A stretch of DNA of 64,000 nt from Epichloe hybrida (Eukaryota > Ascomycota > Sordariomycetes > Hypocreales > Clavicipitaceae): the NCBI GenBank assembly GCA_019022495.1, contig JAFEKR010000031.1, positions 1-64,000 on the forward strand, given 5' to 3'. The notes below the pieces were generated by a model that made no database searches, was not told where the DNA came from, and worked only from the letters and a program-made list of their open reading frames with translations. Positions 31,087-64,000 of this stretch are shown here, one piece after another. The position numbers and the translations under genes were made by a program. Positions within the stretch are counted from its first letter, which is position 1; the number at the start of each line of letters is the position of its first letter.

Positions 31087-32807
31087 TTAGCCGGATGCGG
31101 TGTCGGATTTCTTGCTTTCATCATTTGGCTTGTCTTGCTTGTCGTCCTTCTTGTCGGAGCTGGGCTTGTCAGCCTGGCCATTTTGGTGTGATGGATGATT
31201 GGTGAGATTATGCCACATGGATTTTAGAAATCCTTCGTTTTTGTGCGATTCTGGGTCGTATGGATCGGTGCTGTACGTGACGTGGGTTAGTGTTGGTTCT
31301 ATGCGCTTACAACAGCATTCTCTCCCTTACTTTTGCGACGACGAGACATTCATGACTCGTCTAGCTGTCTTATCACCCATCTCATCGGCCAGCATTTCCA
31401 CAATGGTTCGCTGGTTGGCGCTGAGATACTTGGGCATATTCACCCTGAACTCAACCCGCAGGTCTCCAGAACCCCCTCGGCGAGCACCCAATCTCTTCAT
31501 GCCCATACCAGTAAGCGTCATCTTGTCGCCAGTGTTCGTACCGGTGGCCACCTTGACATTGACAGATCCATCGAGCGTGGGAATGTTGACCTGTCCACCC
31601 AGCAATGCTGTAGTAAGAGGAATATTGGCCGTGTAAAGCACATTTGAGCCCTCTCGACTGAATCTAGGATCCTTGGCAACGCGAACGAAAACATACAAGT
31701 CTCCGCGCTGGGTTCTCGCATTGGGGTCGGCAGACTTCCCAGTCGGCGGAGCATCACCGGCGCCGTCGACTCGCAGCCGCATGCCATCCTCAATTCCGGC
31801 TGGAATATCAACAGTAATGTTTTTTCGTTCCCTGACCACGCCGTTGCCGGAGCAGGTTCGGCATTCTGAGCCCTTGGGAATCGACGTACCCGTTCCATCG
31901 CAAGCACCACAAGTCGAGGCCATTTGAAATCCGCCTTGCATGAAATGCAGACGCGTGCCGGTCCCGTTGCAAGATTTGCATGGCGAACGCTGAGTTCCGG
32001 TCTTGAGCCCGCTGCCTGTGCATGTTCCGCATGCTGTTAGGGGTGTAATACTGATTGTTTTGTTGGTCCCCTTTGCTGCCTCCATGAAACTGATGCTAGC
32101 TTGCACTTCGATATTGTCGCCTACCAAAATTTCCTGTTGAAATGGGTTCGAGCGTGCTCCTCGGCGCCCACCAAAGGGTCCTTGCTGGCCGGTAAATGCC
32201 GAAAAAATGTCTTCAAAGTTGAACCCGCCGCCGAACCCGCCCTGCGCCCCGAATCCGGAGAAAGGATTGCCGGCGCCTCCAAAAGGATCACCACCTCCCG
32301 GGGCACCACTTGGATCAAAGCCAGCAGCGCCAAATTGATCGTACTGCTCCTTCTTCTTCGGATCGGATAGGATCTCGTACGCCGACTGGATGTCGGCAAA
32401 CTTTTCTTTCGCACCGGAGTCCTTGTTCGTATCGGGGTGGTATTTCTTGGCCAGTCCGTAGTATGATTTCTTGATTTCTGAAGCGGACGCAGACTTGCTC
32501 ACGCCGAGAACTTGATACGGATCTTTTTGTGAAAAGGCATTGGTGCTATGGAATGCCTGTTGTTGAATCAGCAAGGGGGCTAACAAAAAGTCTCAGGATG
32601 GTATTGCGAACATACCCTCTTGCCGCCAGGAACGCGGCTGTCAGTCGCACGCTTGCACTCATCGCGACGGCCGATACGAATCGCGGAGGCGTGAAGGTGG
32701 GCGGCGCCCTTGTTCAAGCATTGCTGTATCTTCGGTCGGCTGCCAAGCTTGCTTTGCGCAAGAGCCCGAGCAGGCCGAATCGCCGTGGTGAACAGGTTGG
32801 AATTCAT
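31087..32807 (-). CDS. MDJ1: Mitochondrial DnaJ chaperone Mdj1
   Basis: Type I J-protein of 533 residues that drives mitochondrial Hsp70 in the matrix. Exon 1 is 32807-32616 and encodes a basic, Ser/Ala-rich presequence (starts [20 protein letters not shown]). Exon 2 is 32556-31331 and begins [20 protein letters not shown]. It holds the J domain with HPD, a Gly/Phe-rich linker, four zinc-finger repeats ([32 protein letters not shown]) and the substrate-binding domains. Exon 3 is 31270-31087 and encodes a hydrophilic tail starting [20 protein letters not shown] and ending in Lys/Asp-rich residues. Introns are 59 and 60 nt with GTATGT and GTAAGG donors. All phases close. Confidence 0.94.
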
Positions 32808-33985
32808 TTCGAGCGATGCCAGATCATTGAAACTGCTGCTGGCCCCAGAAGACGAAACCAAGAACACGCAGATAAGGTGTTCGCAGGCTAATGGATTCTT
32901 CTCGAAGGTGCTGGCCCATCAGTGCACTGCGGATCGCGTCCCTAACTTTTTTTTTCCCCGGCCTTGAGCCGGAGTCGGGTGCCTCAGGCGACAACAAGAC
33001 AATGCCGTCATCAGCCGGCCGACCGCTTAGGGGTCCACTGGGTTGAAGCTAATCCGTAAAAAGGTGTGAAACACGCATTATCAGGGAAAGCGGAACTTTG
33101 CCTGCGTTTTGCTTCATAGCAAGGCAGCGGCAAGTAGGGTAAAGCGTAGCTTCTCGCTTTCCCTTTATTAAAATAGGGCTATCCTATGGACATATCTCTT
33201 CTTATTAGTTAGATATACGGAATACCTCAAGGAAAAATCTACTACTCCGTAATAACCATGGAGATCCGCGTCAAAAGCCATGTCCCCTGCACAAGACCCC
33301 GCACAAGGACCTATAATCAGCCAGCGAGGTCGTAACCTCATCGGGTAAATTGAACGAGAGGCATATCAAGGAAATGAGTGATTCGCTTAGAAAGCGATGA
33401 TAACTATCGCGAAGGTTGGAGGGTTTAAAGGCTTGTTTTACAATGATTATTAGAGTTAGAAGACGAAGCTGCTGCTGCTGCCGCTACTGCTGTTAATGAT
33501 GATGATGATGATGATGAAAGAAGGTGGATTGTATACCCTTGCGAGCTTAACAGTCCTAACGACCTTAATGCCTCGAATTCTATAAATGTAGAAGAATCTA
33601 ATGATAGCAACAATAAGTTACTTTTGTATGTAATTTGTATGGTAGAGGTACCTACGGATCCGTATTCTAACTTTCCTTATCATTTTAGGCTATTAATTAT
33701 TAATGCCTTGGGCTACGCTAGGTAGAAACGGATATTATTACTTCCATGTAACCCAGCTCTCTGTATAAGTATACATATACCTAAGCTACCACGTCAAGTC
33801 AATGAAAGTAGCCCGTACTCCGTACATATGAACTATAGAAAAGCGATCCCTGTTGTTCCAAGTGCCGCCCTCTTCTTCCAAGCATTCCCAAGCCAGTGGG
33901 CTGATTTCCGGAAGGACCGGTGTTCATACATACATATTGAATAAATTATTTAGTCATTTGGTACACGTGGTTTTGAGGGACAAGA
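32808..33985. other. Intergenic, AT-rich, with microsatellites
   Basis: Upstream flank of MDJ1, then an AT-rich tract (33170-33960). A trinucleotide stretch (CTG then GAT units) sits at 33468-33517. TACTCCGTA motifs are at about 33244 and 33816. No gene supported. Confidence 0.4.
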
Positions 33986-33992
33986 TATAAAA
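33986..33992 (+). promoter_or_regulatory. TATA-like box of the modular secreted-peptide gene
   Basis: TATAAAA, 74 bases upstream of the ATG at 34067. Spacing fits a core promoter. Confidence 0.5.
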
Positions 33993-34013
33993 CCAGCCTC
34001 CGGTCGCCTCACG

Positions 34014-34066: not shown

Positions 34067-34581
34067 ATGTATTCTGCCAAGCTTTTCTCTGTGGCCTTTG
34101 CTGGTCTATCGCTTCTCTCCATTGCCGTCGCGGCGCCACAACTTGGAAGGGCGAAGCTTCCGAAGGTAGAGACACGTGACAGTATGTTCTAGGAAAAGCT
34201 CTGACAAAACTGCGATATATCTAATTTAATTGCACAGACAAGAATAACATCGTAGCTCGCGGTATTTCTTAGGAGAAGCTCCTGACAAAAACTGCGATAT
34301 ATTTTCTAATTCAATTGCACAGATGAACCAGCGATCGTTCCCGGTATGTAGGAGAAGCTCTGACAAGCACTGCGATACGTTTCTAATTCAATCGCACAGA
34401 TGATGAGAGTGACATCATAGCTATCGGTATGTCTTAGGAGAAGCTCCTAACAAAAACTGCGATATATCTAATTTAAATGCACAGGTGATGATGATGCCAT
34501 CACGGTTCGCGGTATGTTCTGGGAGAAGCTCTGACAAAAACTGCTATATATCTAATTCAATTGCAACTGCACATAGTTTAG
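34067..34581 (+). CDS. Small secreted protein built from tandem intron-exon modules
   Basis: Not in any family I recognise. Exon 1 (34067-34181) encodes a clear signal peptide: basic start MYSAKLF, hydrophobic core, AVAA/APQ as likely cleavage region. A pro-segment follows to VETRD. Then come four micro-exons of 24, 21, 27 and 27 nt: 34238-34261, 34323-34343, 34400-34426 and 34485-34511. They encode NKNNIVAR, DEPAIVP, DDESDIIAI and GDDDAITVR. Introns are 34182-34237, 34262-34322, 34344-34399, 34427-34484 and 34512-34576. All five carry GTAT donors, a shared GGA(G/A)AAGCTC core, TGCGATA, CTAAT and GCACAG-type acceptors. Every border is phase 1. The last exon gives Val-stop (72 residues in total). 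An acceptor five bases later would extend the frame to 34697 (109 residues). Probably extracellular; function unknown. Confidence 0.72.
34182..34576 (+). repeat. Five near-identical tandem introns with intervening micro-exons
   Basis: Unit length is about 77-85 bp (intron plus exon). Intron lengths are 56, 61, 56, 58 and 65 nt. Intron 5 has a small insertion (extra AACTGCA-like bases) before its CATAG acceptor. Introns align over their whole length, whereas exons share only a D-rich start and an I-V/I core. Confidence 0.85.
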
Positions 34582-35728
34582 GTTTTGCTGCCATAAAGAT
34601 AAATTTACGCTCCCGGACGGCAGCGTTTGCGGCCCAGCCTGTTGAAGTTGGTGGCTTCTGTGGGAGGGGGAGTCTGAGTTTCATTCATGTTAGATGAGAT
34701 TAGGATAGCCTCATCCCAAGATTCACCCCGTACCTTTCCAAAAGTCACTCATCCACGTTTGGCTATTAACTTTCTCTCTACTTCCCAATCCATGTTGTAT
34801 TGTATTGTTCACACTTCAGGACACCCCAGACACTTCTGTGTTCATCACGATCATCGGAGCCACTTTCCTTTACTACCTTTTTTTTTTTTTTTTTTTTTTT
34901 TTTTTCCCCCACAATCAGAGCGTAACGGAGGACTCAAACCCTCAACAGCCTGCTTTGGCGGCATCAAGATCTCCAAGTTGGGTACGGACTACTGGAAGGG
35001 GCCTGTGTTCTTGAAAAGCGGGGGCGGGGTTTTGTTTCACACCGCCGACACCACCTGTTGACCGGGATAGTACAGTACAGTGGGGTGTATCTCGCCAAGT
35101 CATCGTCACCCGTCACCGTCAACGTAACCATGCACGTCCCCGCGAACGTCATGGAAGATGAAAGTTTCTTGTTCTTGCTGCTGCGCAGTGGTGGGAAAAG
35201 ACGCAACGTTGGGAATCTACCCCTTTTTTTTTTCCGACCTCGTCATGAACTGAGCAGACTTGCAAATGGTGTCCGACGAGTTTAATTCCATCATGACAAA
35301 ATTCGCAAGATCCCATGGGCCATGGCTGTCCCAAACATCTCGGGAAGCCGTCCGTGGTTGCCGAAGCCGTTTTCGGCACAAAGTCTATACTCCGTACTCC
35401 GTAGTGATGTGCCATTCTTTGAAACAGACAGTGCGAACCAAAAGTAACGACGGAAAATGACAAAGGCGCACGATGAAACAAGAGTCCTCTTCGCAACGGA
35501 ATTGGCTGGTTACTTAAACTTCCCGGGAAGTCCGAAGAAAGTAGGGCGGGCAGGGTATTAAGTCGCTTGCTTTGCTTGTTTGCCTTGCTTGCTCAAGGCC
35601 GTCCGTCCGTCCGTCCGTCCGTCGTCATTCTTATTTACATCCTCCATCCAAATCCTGCCTCATCAAATATAACGTGTCTGAACGAGAGAAAAAAAAAAAA
35701 GAGTCAACGCGCAACATCTCCAACCATC
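34582..35728. other. Intergenic, with a 28-nt T run
   Basis: The T run is 34878-34905. A second T run lies near 35223, and a GTCC tetranucleotide repeat is at 35599-35623. Two adjacent TACTCCGTA-type motifs are at 35388-35403. The end is the A-rich leader of the SDR gene. No gene supported apart from the optional 3' extension of the peptide gene (to 34697). Confidence 0.4.
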
Positions 35729-36724
35729 ATGTCGTCGTCCATCCTCAAGCTCATGACCCCGGACAAGGCCTCCATCCCCTTCGACCCCTCTACCGACATA
35801 CCCTCCCTGCAAGGCAAAGTCATCCTCGTCACGGGCGCCAACAACGGCCTCGGCAAGCAAACCATCTGCGAATTCGCAAAGCACGGCCCCAAGCAGATCT
35901 GGCTCGCTGCTCGCAACGCCGCCGCCGCGCAGAAAGTAGTCGACGAGATACACGCCGCCCTCAACCCCGACGCCGACGCCGACGCCAGTGCCTCGGTCAG
36001 AATCCTCGTCCTCGAGCTGGACCTGACCTCGTTCGCGTCGGTCAAGCGCGCCGCCCAGAGATTCACCACCGAGTCCGACCGGCTGGACATTCTCATGCTC
36101 AACGCGGGAATCATGGCCGCCGCGCCCGCCGTCACCGAGGACGGCTACGAGGTCCAGTTCGGCACAAACCACATGGGCCACGCCCTGCTCACCAAGCTCC
36201 TCCTCCCGACCCTGCAAAGGTCGGCGGCGGCCCGGGACGGCGCAGATGTGCGAGTCGTCGTGCTGAGCTCGAGGGTCGCGCACTTCCTGGCCCCCAAGCA
36301 GGGCATCCGCTTCGATTCGCTCAAGACGACGGCCGCCGACATGAAGCCCTTTGAGAGGTATGGCCAGAGCAAGCTGGCCAATGTCTTGTTCGCGCGACAG
36401 CTTGCCGCTCGTCACCCCGGCTTGACCGTCGTCTCCGTGCATCCGGGCGTCGTCAGGACGAATCTGGTCAACAGCATGTCTGGTGCGCCGTTGATGGCGA
36501 GGCTTCTGTCGCCCATTGCAAACTACTGGTTTACACCCGTCAACCAAGGGGCCAAGAACCAGCTCTGGGCCTCGGTTGCGACCTCCAATATCGACAGCGG
36601 AGAGTACTATGAGCCGGTTGGGGTGCCGGGGAAAGCTGGTAGGCTGGCGCGTAATGAGGATTGGCAAAGGAACTATGGGACTGGACTGAGAATGAACTCG
36701 GGACGTGGTCCTTGTAATACGTAG
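35729..36724 (+). CDS. Short-chain dehydrogenase/reductase, WW-oxidoreductase/retinol-dehydrogenase-like
   Basis: 331-residue, single-exon NAD(P)-dependent oxidoreductase of the classical SDR superfamily. TGANNGLG (about residues 35-42) binds the cofactor; LNAG is the structural NAG motif; YGQSK (near residue 211) is the catalytic YxxxK, with SSR before it supplying the Ser. PGVVRTNL follows, as in the family. The start at 35729 (MSSSILKLMTPDK) is chosen over an upstream in-frame ATG at 35567, which would translate the GTCC-repeat leader. Substrate not predictable. Confidence 0.9.
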   Translation: MSSSILKLMTPDKASIPFDPSTDIPSLQGKVILVTGANNGLGKQTICEFAKHGPKQIWLAARNAAAAQKVVDEIHAALNPDADADASASVRILVLELDLTSFASVKRAAQRFTTESDRLDILMLNAGIMAAAPAVTEDGYEVQFGTNHMGHALLTKLLLPTLQRSAAARDGADVRVVVLSSRVAHFLAPKQGIRFDSLKTTAADMKPFERYGQSKLANVLFARQLAARHPGLTVVSVHPGVVRTNLVNSMSGAPLMARLLSPIANYWFTPVNQGAKNQLWASVATSNIDSGEYYEPVGVPGKAGRLARNEDWQRNYGTGLRMNSGRGPCNT

Positions 36725-61688: not shown

Positions 61689-64000
61689 CTACCGTGGCCA
61701 AAAGGGAGCTTGAAAATCCACATCTTCCCCTTCCGCATCACGGTCACTATGAGGTGATTTTTCGGACCCGGCGATTGGGGAAGACGCCTGGTTTTGGAAA
61801 TCGAAACTCATGGCCATTTCTGCCCCGTCATAGGTCTGCAACGACGCTCTTCCAGATGCTTGTTGCTGTTGCTGTTGCTGATGCTGGTGCTGATGCTGTT
61901 GCTGATGCTGGTGCTGATGCTGATGCTGATGCTGATGCTGATGCTGATGCTGATGCTGATGCTGATGCTGATGCTGATGCTGATGCTGATGCTGATGCTG
62001 CTGATGCTGCTGCTGCCCCTGCTGCTGTTGAGGGAATCGAGCTTGAGACGAGGATGGCAACGTGGCAGAGTACTCCATGAGAGGGTACGTGGATGTGATT
62101 CTTGATTGGTGATGATTTCCAAGAAGAAGCGTCGGGTCGACGAGTGGGCCTTGTATGGCTGCATGGTTATACATATCCAGAGGATTGATGATGCTCGTGC
62201 TGGGGAGCAGGGGGGGCAGCAGGCTGGGCAAGGTGTAAGAGGACGAAGCATGCATTTGAGCGGGATGATTTGCAGACCTGTTGCCGTTGATGTTGCTGTC
62301 TGGGCCTGTCGAGAACGGGCACAACTGATGATGCCATACTTGGCTCCAACGAGGCGGTGGTGCGGTGGCCGTTATGCTAGACATGTAACCTTGCTGCGGG
62401 TCCCAACTTGCTTGATTGTTGACTTGGTTGTGACCGAAGGTGTCGTTGACGTAATAAGGAGCGAGGCCGGTTTGTTGTGTTTGTTGTGGTTGTCCGCTGC
62501 TTAACATCCGGCTGTGGGCGGGATCAACAGCAACAGATGTCTGCTGATACTGACCTTGTTGTTGTTGTTGTCGCTGCTGCTGCTGCAGGAGAAGCTGGTT
62601 GCCCTCGTTCACATCATCTGGGTTGGAAACCAATTCATGGCCATAGTGATGGTGATGTCGATGGGGGACATGATCAATTTCAACATCAAACTCATCTTCC
62701 CACTTGACATCGTCACCGTATGGCTCATCGTCATCGTCCTGCCCATCGCCGGCGTCTCTGTTCACACGTCTGCGAGACGGCCTGGGTCGTACTCGTCTCT
62801 TGGCCGGAACAGTCTGCCCTTCTTCTGCCTTGAGACTCGCCACCTCTTGCCTTCCTCGCTCGATGGCGCCGTCATACTCTGGATGCCGGTTCGGCGGGTA
62901 CGGCTCAGAATTGCCAGGCCATTTGGCGATGACCATGGCGGCCAGTTCTTGGGAGGAAAGCTGGTCTATGCGTTTGTCTTGAACTCTGCTGGCCTGGCCA
63001 TCGGGCTCGCCAACCCTAACCCTGGGGCCAGTTCCGCTCACATTCGGAGCGAGATCAGTTCCCAAGGGTGGCTGGCCGGGAGGCAGAACCGCCTGTCGCA
63101 TGTCCTGGGCGATGGAAGTCAAGGTCATTTTGTTCTCGGTCCTTCGCACAGCGACTTCTTTCTTGGGCTTCTTTTCTCCCGCGACTAGCGCAGCAACCGT
63201 TGCGGTATCTGCACCAGTGTTAATTGCCATTTTTAGCTTGTTGGCGGCCACGGGTGCGAGGGGGGGGGGTGGGTTGTTGGTTTCATTCCAAAGGAACCAG
63301 TTGACTAACCATGTTTACCGAGGGCCTCTCGAATCTGGTCCGTGAGCTTCCTCGTCTTCTCCCTCTTCTCAGCACTCGTCGCCTTCTTTTGGTCTTCTGT
63401 AGGCGGCTTCTTGTCGATGGCGTAGAGCGGGAAAAGGGGCCCGATCCAGTGCTCCATCTTGCTCCCGTCCTTGACGTCGTCTACGCCGCCGGCGCCGTAC
63501 CCGAGCGCAAGGTAGTATATCGGCCCCGGAGCATGTGGGAGCCTCTCGATGCAGTTGTAGCCGTCCTTTTCGTCATCGCAGCAGGTGGACACGGCGTTGC
63601 CTTGTTCGTCGACGACCGTCGTCGTCTGCTCCCCGACACACGAATCGCAGGGCCGTTGGCGGTCACAGTTTCGGCCGAGTTCCTTGCATCTCTTGCACTT
63701 GGCGAAGGTGCACATGTTTCCCATGCCGACGCGGCTGAAGTCGTACAGTGGGAATGACTTGTCTGGCTGTCCGGCATCCCAGCAGACGATGCCCATTTCC
63801 CAACACATGGAGCACGAGTATTCGATCTCCCTTGCCAGCGCGCGACAATGGTGCGTTGTCCCTTCGAGGCATGCCTTGCAGCCGCGTCTATAAGGGCTCC
63901 CTCCGCGGCATTCCGCCCAGCCGGAAAGTAAGGAGTGCAAGGTAGACCACTTGTCGGGGGGTTCTGGCGGAGTCGGGTTCTGGACTGGCCAGCCGCTGCT
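61689..64000 (-). CDS. Cys-rich protein with His-Gln repeat, 5' end beyond the window
   Basis: The frame is open from the right edge (64000) to a donor near 63310 (CATG/GTTAGT; CTCG/GTAAAC at 63319 is an alternative). Exon 2 runs 63208-61689, entered at GTGCAG/AT. The N-terminal part seen here has Cys pairs CKAC, CSMC, CKRCKELGRNC and CDSC, then CC. The block CKRCKELGRNCDRQRPCDSC resembles part of a fungal Zn2Cys6 DNA-binding motif but is not a standard one. The C-terminal exon is hydrophilic, with a basic cluster (KRRVRPRPSRRRVNR), an Asp/Glu stretch, polyQ and a long His-Gln alternation encoded at 61868-62010. I infer a nuclear regulator; function unknown. Confidence 0.6.
61868..62010 (+). 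repeat. Hexanucleotide repeat GATGCT within coding sequence
   Basis: About 20 near-perfect copies of GATGCT. On the minus strand they read as alternating His-Gln codons. Confidence 0.9.

Follow-up and report, generated by a model that had tools for sequence, protein, structure and literature searches.

The window analysed here, a stretch of 64,000 nucleotides of Epichloe hybrida DNA, contains at positions 34067-34581 of the forward strand a gene in which five introns of 56-65 nt alternate with four micro-exons of 21-27 nt, all in phase 1. This structure was read directly from the sequence and re-derived by script, and the exon and intron borders given in an earlier note on this DNA, those found by the script and those of the gene model of Epichloe festucae Fl1 are the same. 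Exon 1 (34067-34181, 115 nt) encodes a signal-peptide-type start and the conserved beginning of a pro-region, MYSAKLFSVAFAGLSLLSIAVAAPQLGRAKLPKVETRD. It is followed by intron 1 (34182-34237, 56 nt), micro-exon 2 (34238-34261, 24 nt, ending in IVAR), intron 2 (34262-34322, 61 nt), micro-exon 3 (34323-34343, 21 nt, without a terminal Arg), intron 3 (34344-34399, 56 nt), micro-exon 4 (34400-34426, 27 nt, also without a terminal Arg), intron 4 (34427-34484, 58 nt), micro-exon 5 (34485-34511, 27 nt, ending in ITVR) and intron 5 (34512-34576, 65 nt), after which the annotated reading frame ends with V and a stop at 34577-34581. The donors read GTATGT in four introns and GTATTT in one, the acceptors CACAG in four and CATAG in one, and the distance from CTAAT to the acceptor AG is 12 nt in four introns and 20 nt in intron 5, whose 3' end is altered. 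Retention of any of the five introns would introduce an in-frame stop, and on this point, as on borders and phase, the script bears out the earlier note.

Tandem Repeats Finder scores the array at 336 (85-nt unit, 4.7 copies) and at 413 (165-nt unit, 2.3 copies), the two highest scores among the 22 rows for the window. As the 165-nt double unit scores higher, a two-module step may have contributed to the growth of the array. About 75 nt 5' of the ATG lies a conserved upstream element (33967-34001, forward strand) with TATAAAA at 33986-33992, which was recognised by comparison with a diverged copy of the locus on contig C135 and matches that copy at 33 of 35 positions, the two differing ones being the R positions of the pattern. 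This pattern has five matches in the genome, all of them copies of the array locus, and a genome search allowing up to 3 mismatches found no further upstream elements or Cys-terminal exons beyond these five. In a Pfam scan that covered ten of the window's open frames, the nearest matched neighbours are ordinary ones, a DnaJ protein (31327-32592) and a short-chain dehydrogenase (35477-36724). Elsewhere in the window, at 61855-62016, the hexamer GATGCT occurs about 27 times and overlaps open frames on both strands.

A 634-base query returned four 100% matches in the genome, on C82 (the contig of the window), C65, C144 and C17, and one 72% match, covering query bases 1-333, on C135. No difference separates C82 from C65 across 3,634 compared bases. 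Measured from the neighbouring DBP10-type helicase gene, the array lies 7,467 bases away on C82 and C17, 7,356 on C65 and 7,706 on C144 (offsets from the window of 0, -111 and +239 bases for C17, C65 and C144, respectively), so the four copies are not identical at a larger scale. Assembly redundancy is the likelier explanation for these near-identical copies, ahead of recent duplications. The helicase gene, too, has a diverged second copy (97% over 2,001 bases), and the presence of such a copy of both array and helicase gene, together with the genome size of 79.9 Mb, would fit a hybrid of two parents.

The C135 copy is syntenic with the window, with flanks that align over 12.3 kb at 93.5% and over 4.0 kb at 89.7%, while alignment of the array block gives about 72-76% for its main pieces. 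Exon 1 is 91.3% identical between the two copies (105 identities, 10 mismatches), with a pS of 0.163 against a pN of 0.072 over 38 codons. The C135 copy consists of two micro-exons (21 and 24 nt) and three introns (70, 59 and 56 nt) that belong to the window's intron family, all in phase 1, besides its exon 1 and last exon, compared with four micro-exons and five introns in the window, and this unequal module number supports the earlier proposal that the unit of duplication is an intron plus an exon. The last 25 nt of C135 exon 1 are 83% identical to the third exon of that copy, which suggests that a junction was lost or gained there. As for other features of this copy, a run of 14 A is the main cause of the 70-nt length of its first intron, and 18/38-bp direct repeats lie immediately 5' of its start codon (L005 1879-1961), in a stretch that holds four occurrences of CATCTGA, of which the window copy has two.

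The spliced 72-aa product of the window copy is identical over its full length to the hypothetical protein C2857_007426 of E. festucae Fl1. The second database relative is an E. bromicola protein of 104 aa, which begins in the same way, continues with acidic repeats that close on [ILV]xxR and finishes with GLICCTQFVPSGSVCDETC. Three protein searches found no relatives other than these two; a profile search that scored 176 candidates gave back nothing but two of the three sequences it had started from, and an exon-1 read-through query brought back only P0001. With only two related proteins in the database, the last exon of the C135 copy depends on one outside protein. All three proteins (window product, C135 copy and E. 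bromicola) share a hydrophobic start as judged by eye, in keeping with the view in the earlier note that the protein is of secreted type.

A genome search with the E. bromicola protein recovered the five locus copies and a match on C69 that we set aside as weak (E 0.8, 34% identity). In Pfam, no family exceeded the cut-off for the E. festucae protein or for the C135 Cys peptide described below, in agreement with the earlier statement that no known family could be assigned; a sub-threshold hit of the E. festucae protein to Anophelin (15.7 bits, cut-off 27, E 0.015) was set aside. The C135-copy Cys peptide had no matches among solved structures up to E 10, and no mention of C2857_007426 was found in the open-licence literature. 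The gene, found so far only in Epichloë, appears to be restricted to that genus and fast-evolving.

Within the window array, pairwise identity is 87-96% among the introns and 62-79% among the micro-exons, gap columns being excluded. The introns had been described as almost identical, and that stands, but the TGCGATA listed among their shared features is not universal: intron 5 has TGCTATA where the other four read TGCGATA. Pooled over adjacent pairs, the introns give 201 identities and 21 mismatches and the micro-exons 49 and 16 (Fisher p = 0.0027, a test weakened by short gapped alignments and shared history), which suggests that the peptide-coding part changes faster than the introns. In the window and C135 copies together, the micro-exon lengths are multiples of three in six of six cases (21, 24 or 27 nt) and the intron lengths in none of eight.

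The earlier note had advised searching the genome with the intron consensus. Two intron patterns, run with up to 3 mismatches over the 79.9 Mb genome, matched only at the window locus and its C135 counterpart, at a recovery of five of the eight known introns. One pattern recovers window introns 3 and 5 and the last C135 intron, the other window introns 1 and 4, so that more diverged intron copies could be missed. An inverted repeat, TGCGAT/ATTGCA, surrounds the CTAAT in the window and C135 introns, with 95.8% of cells pairing and one compensatory change; this pairing was equalled by 71 of 500 shuffles, and it is only suggestive of an RNA structure in the introns.

Directly 3' of the annotated stop, at 34583-34645 on the forward strand, comparison revealed a segment of coding type that the earlier note had overlooked. 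It encodes FCCHKDKFTLPDGSVCGPAC followed by a stop, with four Cys, and has homologues in the peptides at the C-terminus of the C135 product and of the E. bromicola protein. In C135 the spliced product runs past the last intron into GLQFCCNRDQGKIPDGSVCDETC and a stop, so that the segment is in frame there, and a CC..C..C peptide closes both this product and the E. bromicola protein. The annotated splice sites of the window copy leave the segment out of frame. If exons 1 to 4 are kept as they are, there are two alternative GT-AG pairs for the final intron that bring the segment into frame, one of them giving ITVRGMFCC..., close to the IDTRGLICC... of E. bromicola, although we judge both alternative donors (GTTCGC and GTTCTG) to be weak. 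Because of the frame, the putatively secreted product of the window allele is most likely truncated, unless the last intron is spliced in another way. The segment is identical between window and C135 at 44 of 60 bases (73%), compared with 85-88% for the DNA just downstream, and all four Cys codons are kept. In the Cys frame pS/pN is 0.44/0.23 and in the next frame 0.30/0.28, a sample of 19-20 codons being too small to speak of selection. From the sequence comparison, the conservation of the segment leans toward loss or fast change and does not settle between loss and alternative splicing.

The three proteins contain 14 Arg in total. Ten of these lie between residue 30 and the CC (or the protein end), and in every case P4 is I, L or V. 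Listed protein by protein, these sites are VETR, IVAR, ITVR; LHAR, VLPR, INTR, IDTR; and INTR, LKIR, LKIR. The share of I, L, V and M in that pro-region is 22.6% of 137 residues; the ten sites are related by duplication and hence are not independent observations. The remaining four Arg are three in QLGR (residue 27/28), which depart from the motif, and one in CCNR inside the Cys part. Kex2 is described as preferring an aliphatic P4, with T, P, E or I among the residues that may stand at P2 (PMC8528282). Three of the ten sites, shared between E. bromicola and the C135 copy, have the strict LxxR form; the window copy has no such site and fits only the wider, aliphatic-P4 form of the motif. The pro-regions of all three proteins are free of dibasic KR and RR, and at monobasic pro-peptide ends yapsins may cut instead of Kex2 (PMC5514056), a source that presents LDAR only as a possible pro-peptide end of Efe-AfpA. 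In the window, Arg closes micro-exons 2 and 5, and micro-exons 3 and 4 are without a releasing Arg.

From the gene-model structure, the different module numbers of the two copies, their conserved ends and the motif found at each pro-region Arg, we infer that the gene encodes a Kex2-type-processed secreted prepro-peptide, in which an acidic pro-region made of micro-exon modules lies ahead of a four-Cys peptide, and we put the probability of this reading at roughly 0.55. The transcript would be spliced in vivo as predicted, and exon 1 would supply the signal peptide of a putatively secreted product as well as the conserved part with which its pro-region opens. A variable count of symmetric phase-1 micro-exons, each copied with its own intron, would then build a short acidic pro-region with [ILV]xxR sites. 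The last exon would encode the mature peptide with its CC..C..C arrangement, which a kexin or a yapsin-type protease would set free by cleavage after the last [ILV]xxR. This Cys peptide is the putative active product, and its role would probably lie in the plant apoplast, toward the host or competitors. The micro-exon array may thus serve as an evolutionary dial for the pro-region, as the symmetry of the modules would leave the frame intact upon gain or loss and the near-identical introns would offer sites for unequal crossing-over.

The alternative that survives best, and one compatible with the prepro-peptide reading, is that the window allele is in decay or has already lost its function, with the array left over from a gene that works in other lineages. 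We hold this as a tentative but serious possibility, given that annotated splicing does not read the Cys segment in frame, that this segment is less conserved than the neighbouring downstream DNA, that the 3' end of intron 5 is altered and that two window modules have no Arg. Such decay would, however, have spared a good deal: all four window micro-exons still have lengths of 3n with an open frame, the donors, CTAAT sites and upstream element are intact, and the two alternative GT-AG pairs for the final intron, for all the weakness of their donors, read the Cys segment in frame in unaltered DNA.

The earlier note had instead envisaged a polymeric or multi-peptide product, and a related reading is that of a Kex2-processed repeat protein (KEP), in which every module would contribute at least one acidic peptide that is itself secreted as a product. 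KEPs, including GigA and the epichloëcyclins, are described as secreted repeat precursors with putative kexin sites and strain-variable repeat content (PMC7329392, PMC7317419, PMC9233826), and the array gene resembles them in that a secretion-type start leads into imperfect repeats ending in [ILV]xxR, in the differing module number of its copies and, for the annotated window copy, in having the modules alone after exon 1. Yet the two relatives with a complete end carry the four-Cys segment at their C-terminus, which makes the modules look more like a pro-region or spacer than the main product, and in the window micro-exons 3 and 4, half of the modules, have no Arg for separate release. The module peptides are also poorly conserved, whereas two other genes have retained the Cys end. 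The array gene further differs from KEPs in its missing dibasic sites and in its repeats of 7-9 aa with introns between them, the intron structure of GigA not being part of this comparison. The repeats of GigA are 27 aa long, and its cluster of four genes includes kexB and a DUF3328 gene, unlike the array, on whose contig none of the UstYa matches listed falls. The KEP survey excluded proteins whose repeats were all shorter than 8 aa (PMC7329392); the array repeats are imperfect and 7-9 aa long. Peptides may be released from the repeats, but we consider it doubtful that the module peptides are the products.

A dikaritin or epichloëcyclin RiPP cluster was rejected on the UstYa (DUF3328) matches listed, at least 43 in number: none lies on C82 or C135, so that no adjoining cluster for dikaritin-type cyclisation was found, which speaks against a dikaritin-type product. 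Among the contigs with a listed UstYa match, C65 alone also holds the array, about 594 kb apart. Apart from the array, 45-bp tandem repeats adjoin UstYa genes on C113 and C1 (L044, L045) and possibly mark repeat-precursor genes.

A schistosome-like mode of action seems rather improbable to us. Here, micro-exon skipping together with Kex2 cuts would yield pro-peptides in varying combinations, the last splice site used would decide whether the Cys peptide is made, and the micro-exons would be under diversifying selection while uniform introns sustain unequal crossing-over. The micro-exon genes of schistosomes resemble the array gene in having symmetric micro-exons in genes for secreted proteins, of 6-36 nt there (PMC5825161) and 21-27 nt here, and the symmetry means that exon skipping would preserve the frame. 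The array modules differ from these in being tandem copies with near-identical introns, and no homology is claimed. Schistosome genes of this type produce variants by alternative splicing, and about 80% of their coding sequence lies in short symmetric exons; the window copy has 99 nt in micro-exons and 115 nt in exon 1.

That the array is a non-coding 85-nt minisatellite merely resembling introns and exons is very improbable in spite of the 85-nt tandem repeat, since the micro-exons alone are held to multiples of three, exon 1 has a pS above its pN, and both an identical E. festucae protein model and a homologous E. bromicola protein exist. We rejected introner-like elements, an invasive family of near-identical introns inserted repeatedly into one gene, as the least probable reading of all: the window introns are near identical and share a short inverted repeat around CTAAT, but such elements are described as numbering hundreds of copies in unrelated genes (PMC4457414), the intron patterns (recovering five of eight known introns) match no unrelated genes, and insertion of introns alone would not make the micro-exons repeats as well.

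Among known systems, the prepro-peptide reading comes close to the K2PP effectors, with which the array gene would share a secretion-type start, a pro-region, an extended Kex2 motif with aliphatic P4 and a C-terminal mature part. The array gene differs in that its pro-region consists of variable modules of micro-exon plus intron with several sites, and in that I or V stands at P4 more often than L. Aphid bicycle genes are effector-type genes for secreted proteins with many tiny exons, and they are not homologous to the array gene. These genes are named in PMC11333574. Tandem duplication of introns within a gene likewise copies introns along with neighbouring coding DNA (PMC4457414, PMC4974935), but as described there these are rare single gains, under 1% in Zymoseptoria tritici (PMC4457414), whereas the array gene shows repeated duplication with variable copy number. 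The AGL genes of arbuscular mycorrhizal fungi are described as having a signal region that is best conserved, introns more conserved than the mature coding part and repeats that arose by local duplication, all of which they share with the array gene; they differ in having one or two introns, P/G-rich proteins and a GPI-anchor signal (PMC8786786). Kex2-processed repeat or pro-domain proteins are already known in fungi (PMC8528282, PMC7329392), GigA being the Epichloë case. Among the open-licence papers listed on the subject we found no precedent for tandem intron-exon modules in fungal secreted genes, which is weak evidence of absence. It is thus the architecture, near-identical introns joined to micro-exon modules, that is unusual, and not the class of product.

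The locus is a clean case of a secreted-peptide gene that grows and shrinks by whole intron-plus-exon units. It also offers material for comparison: the genome holds two copies that have diverged, a third species can be set beside them, and the introns are more alike than the exons between them. If transcripts confirm the structure, the gene would provide a testable model for how the secreted peptides of endophytes diversify, and it would serve as a warning that gene finders, and surveys of repeat peptides that work from proteins, can miss micro-exon arrays and the last exon.
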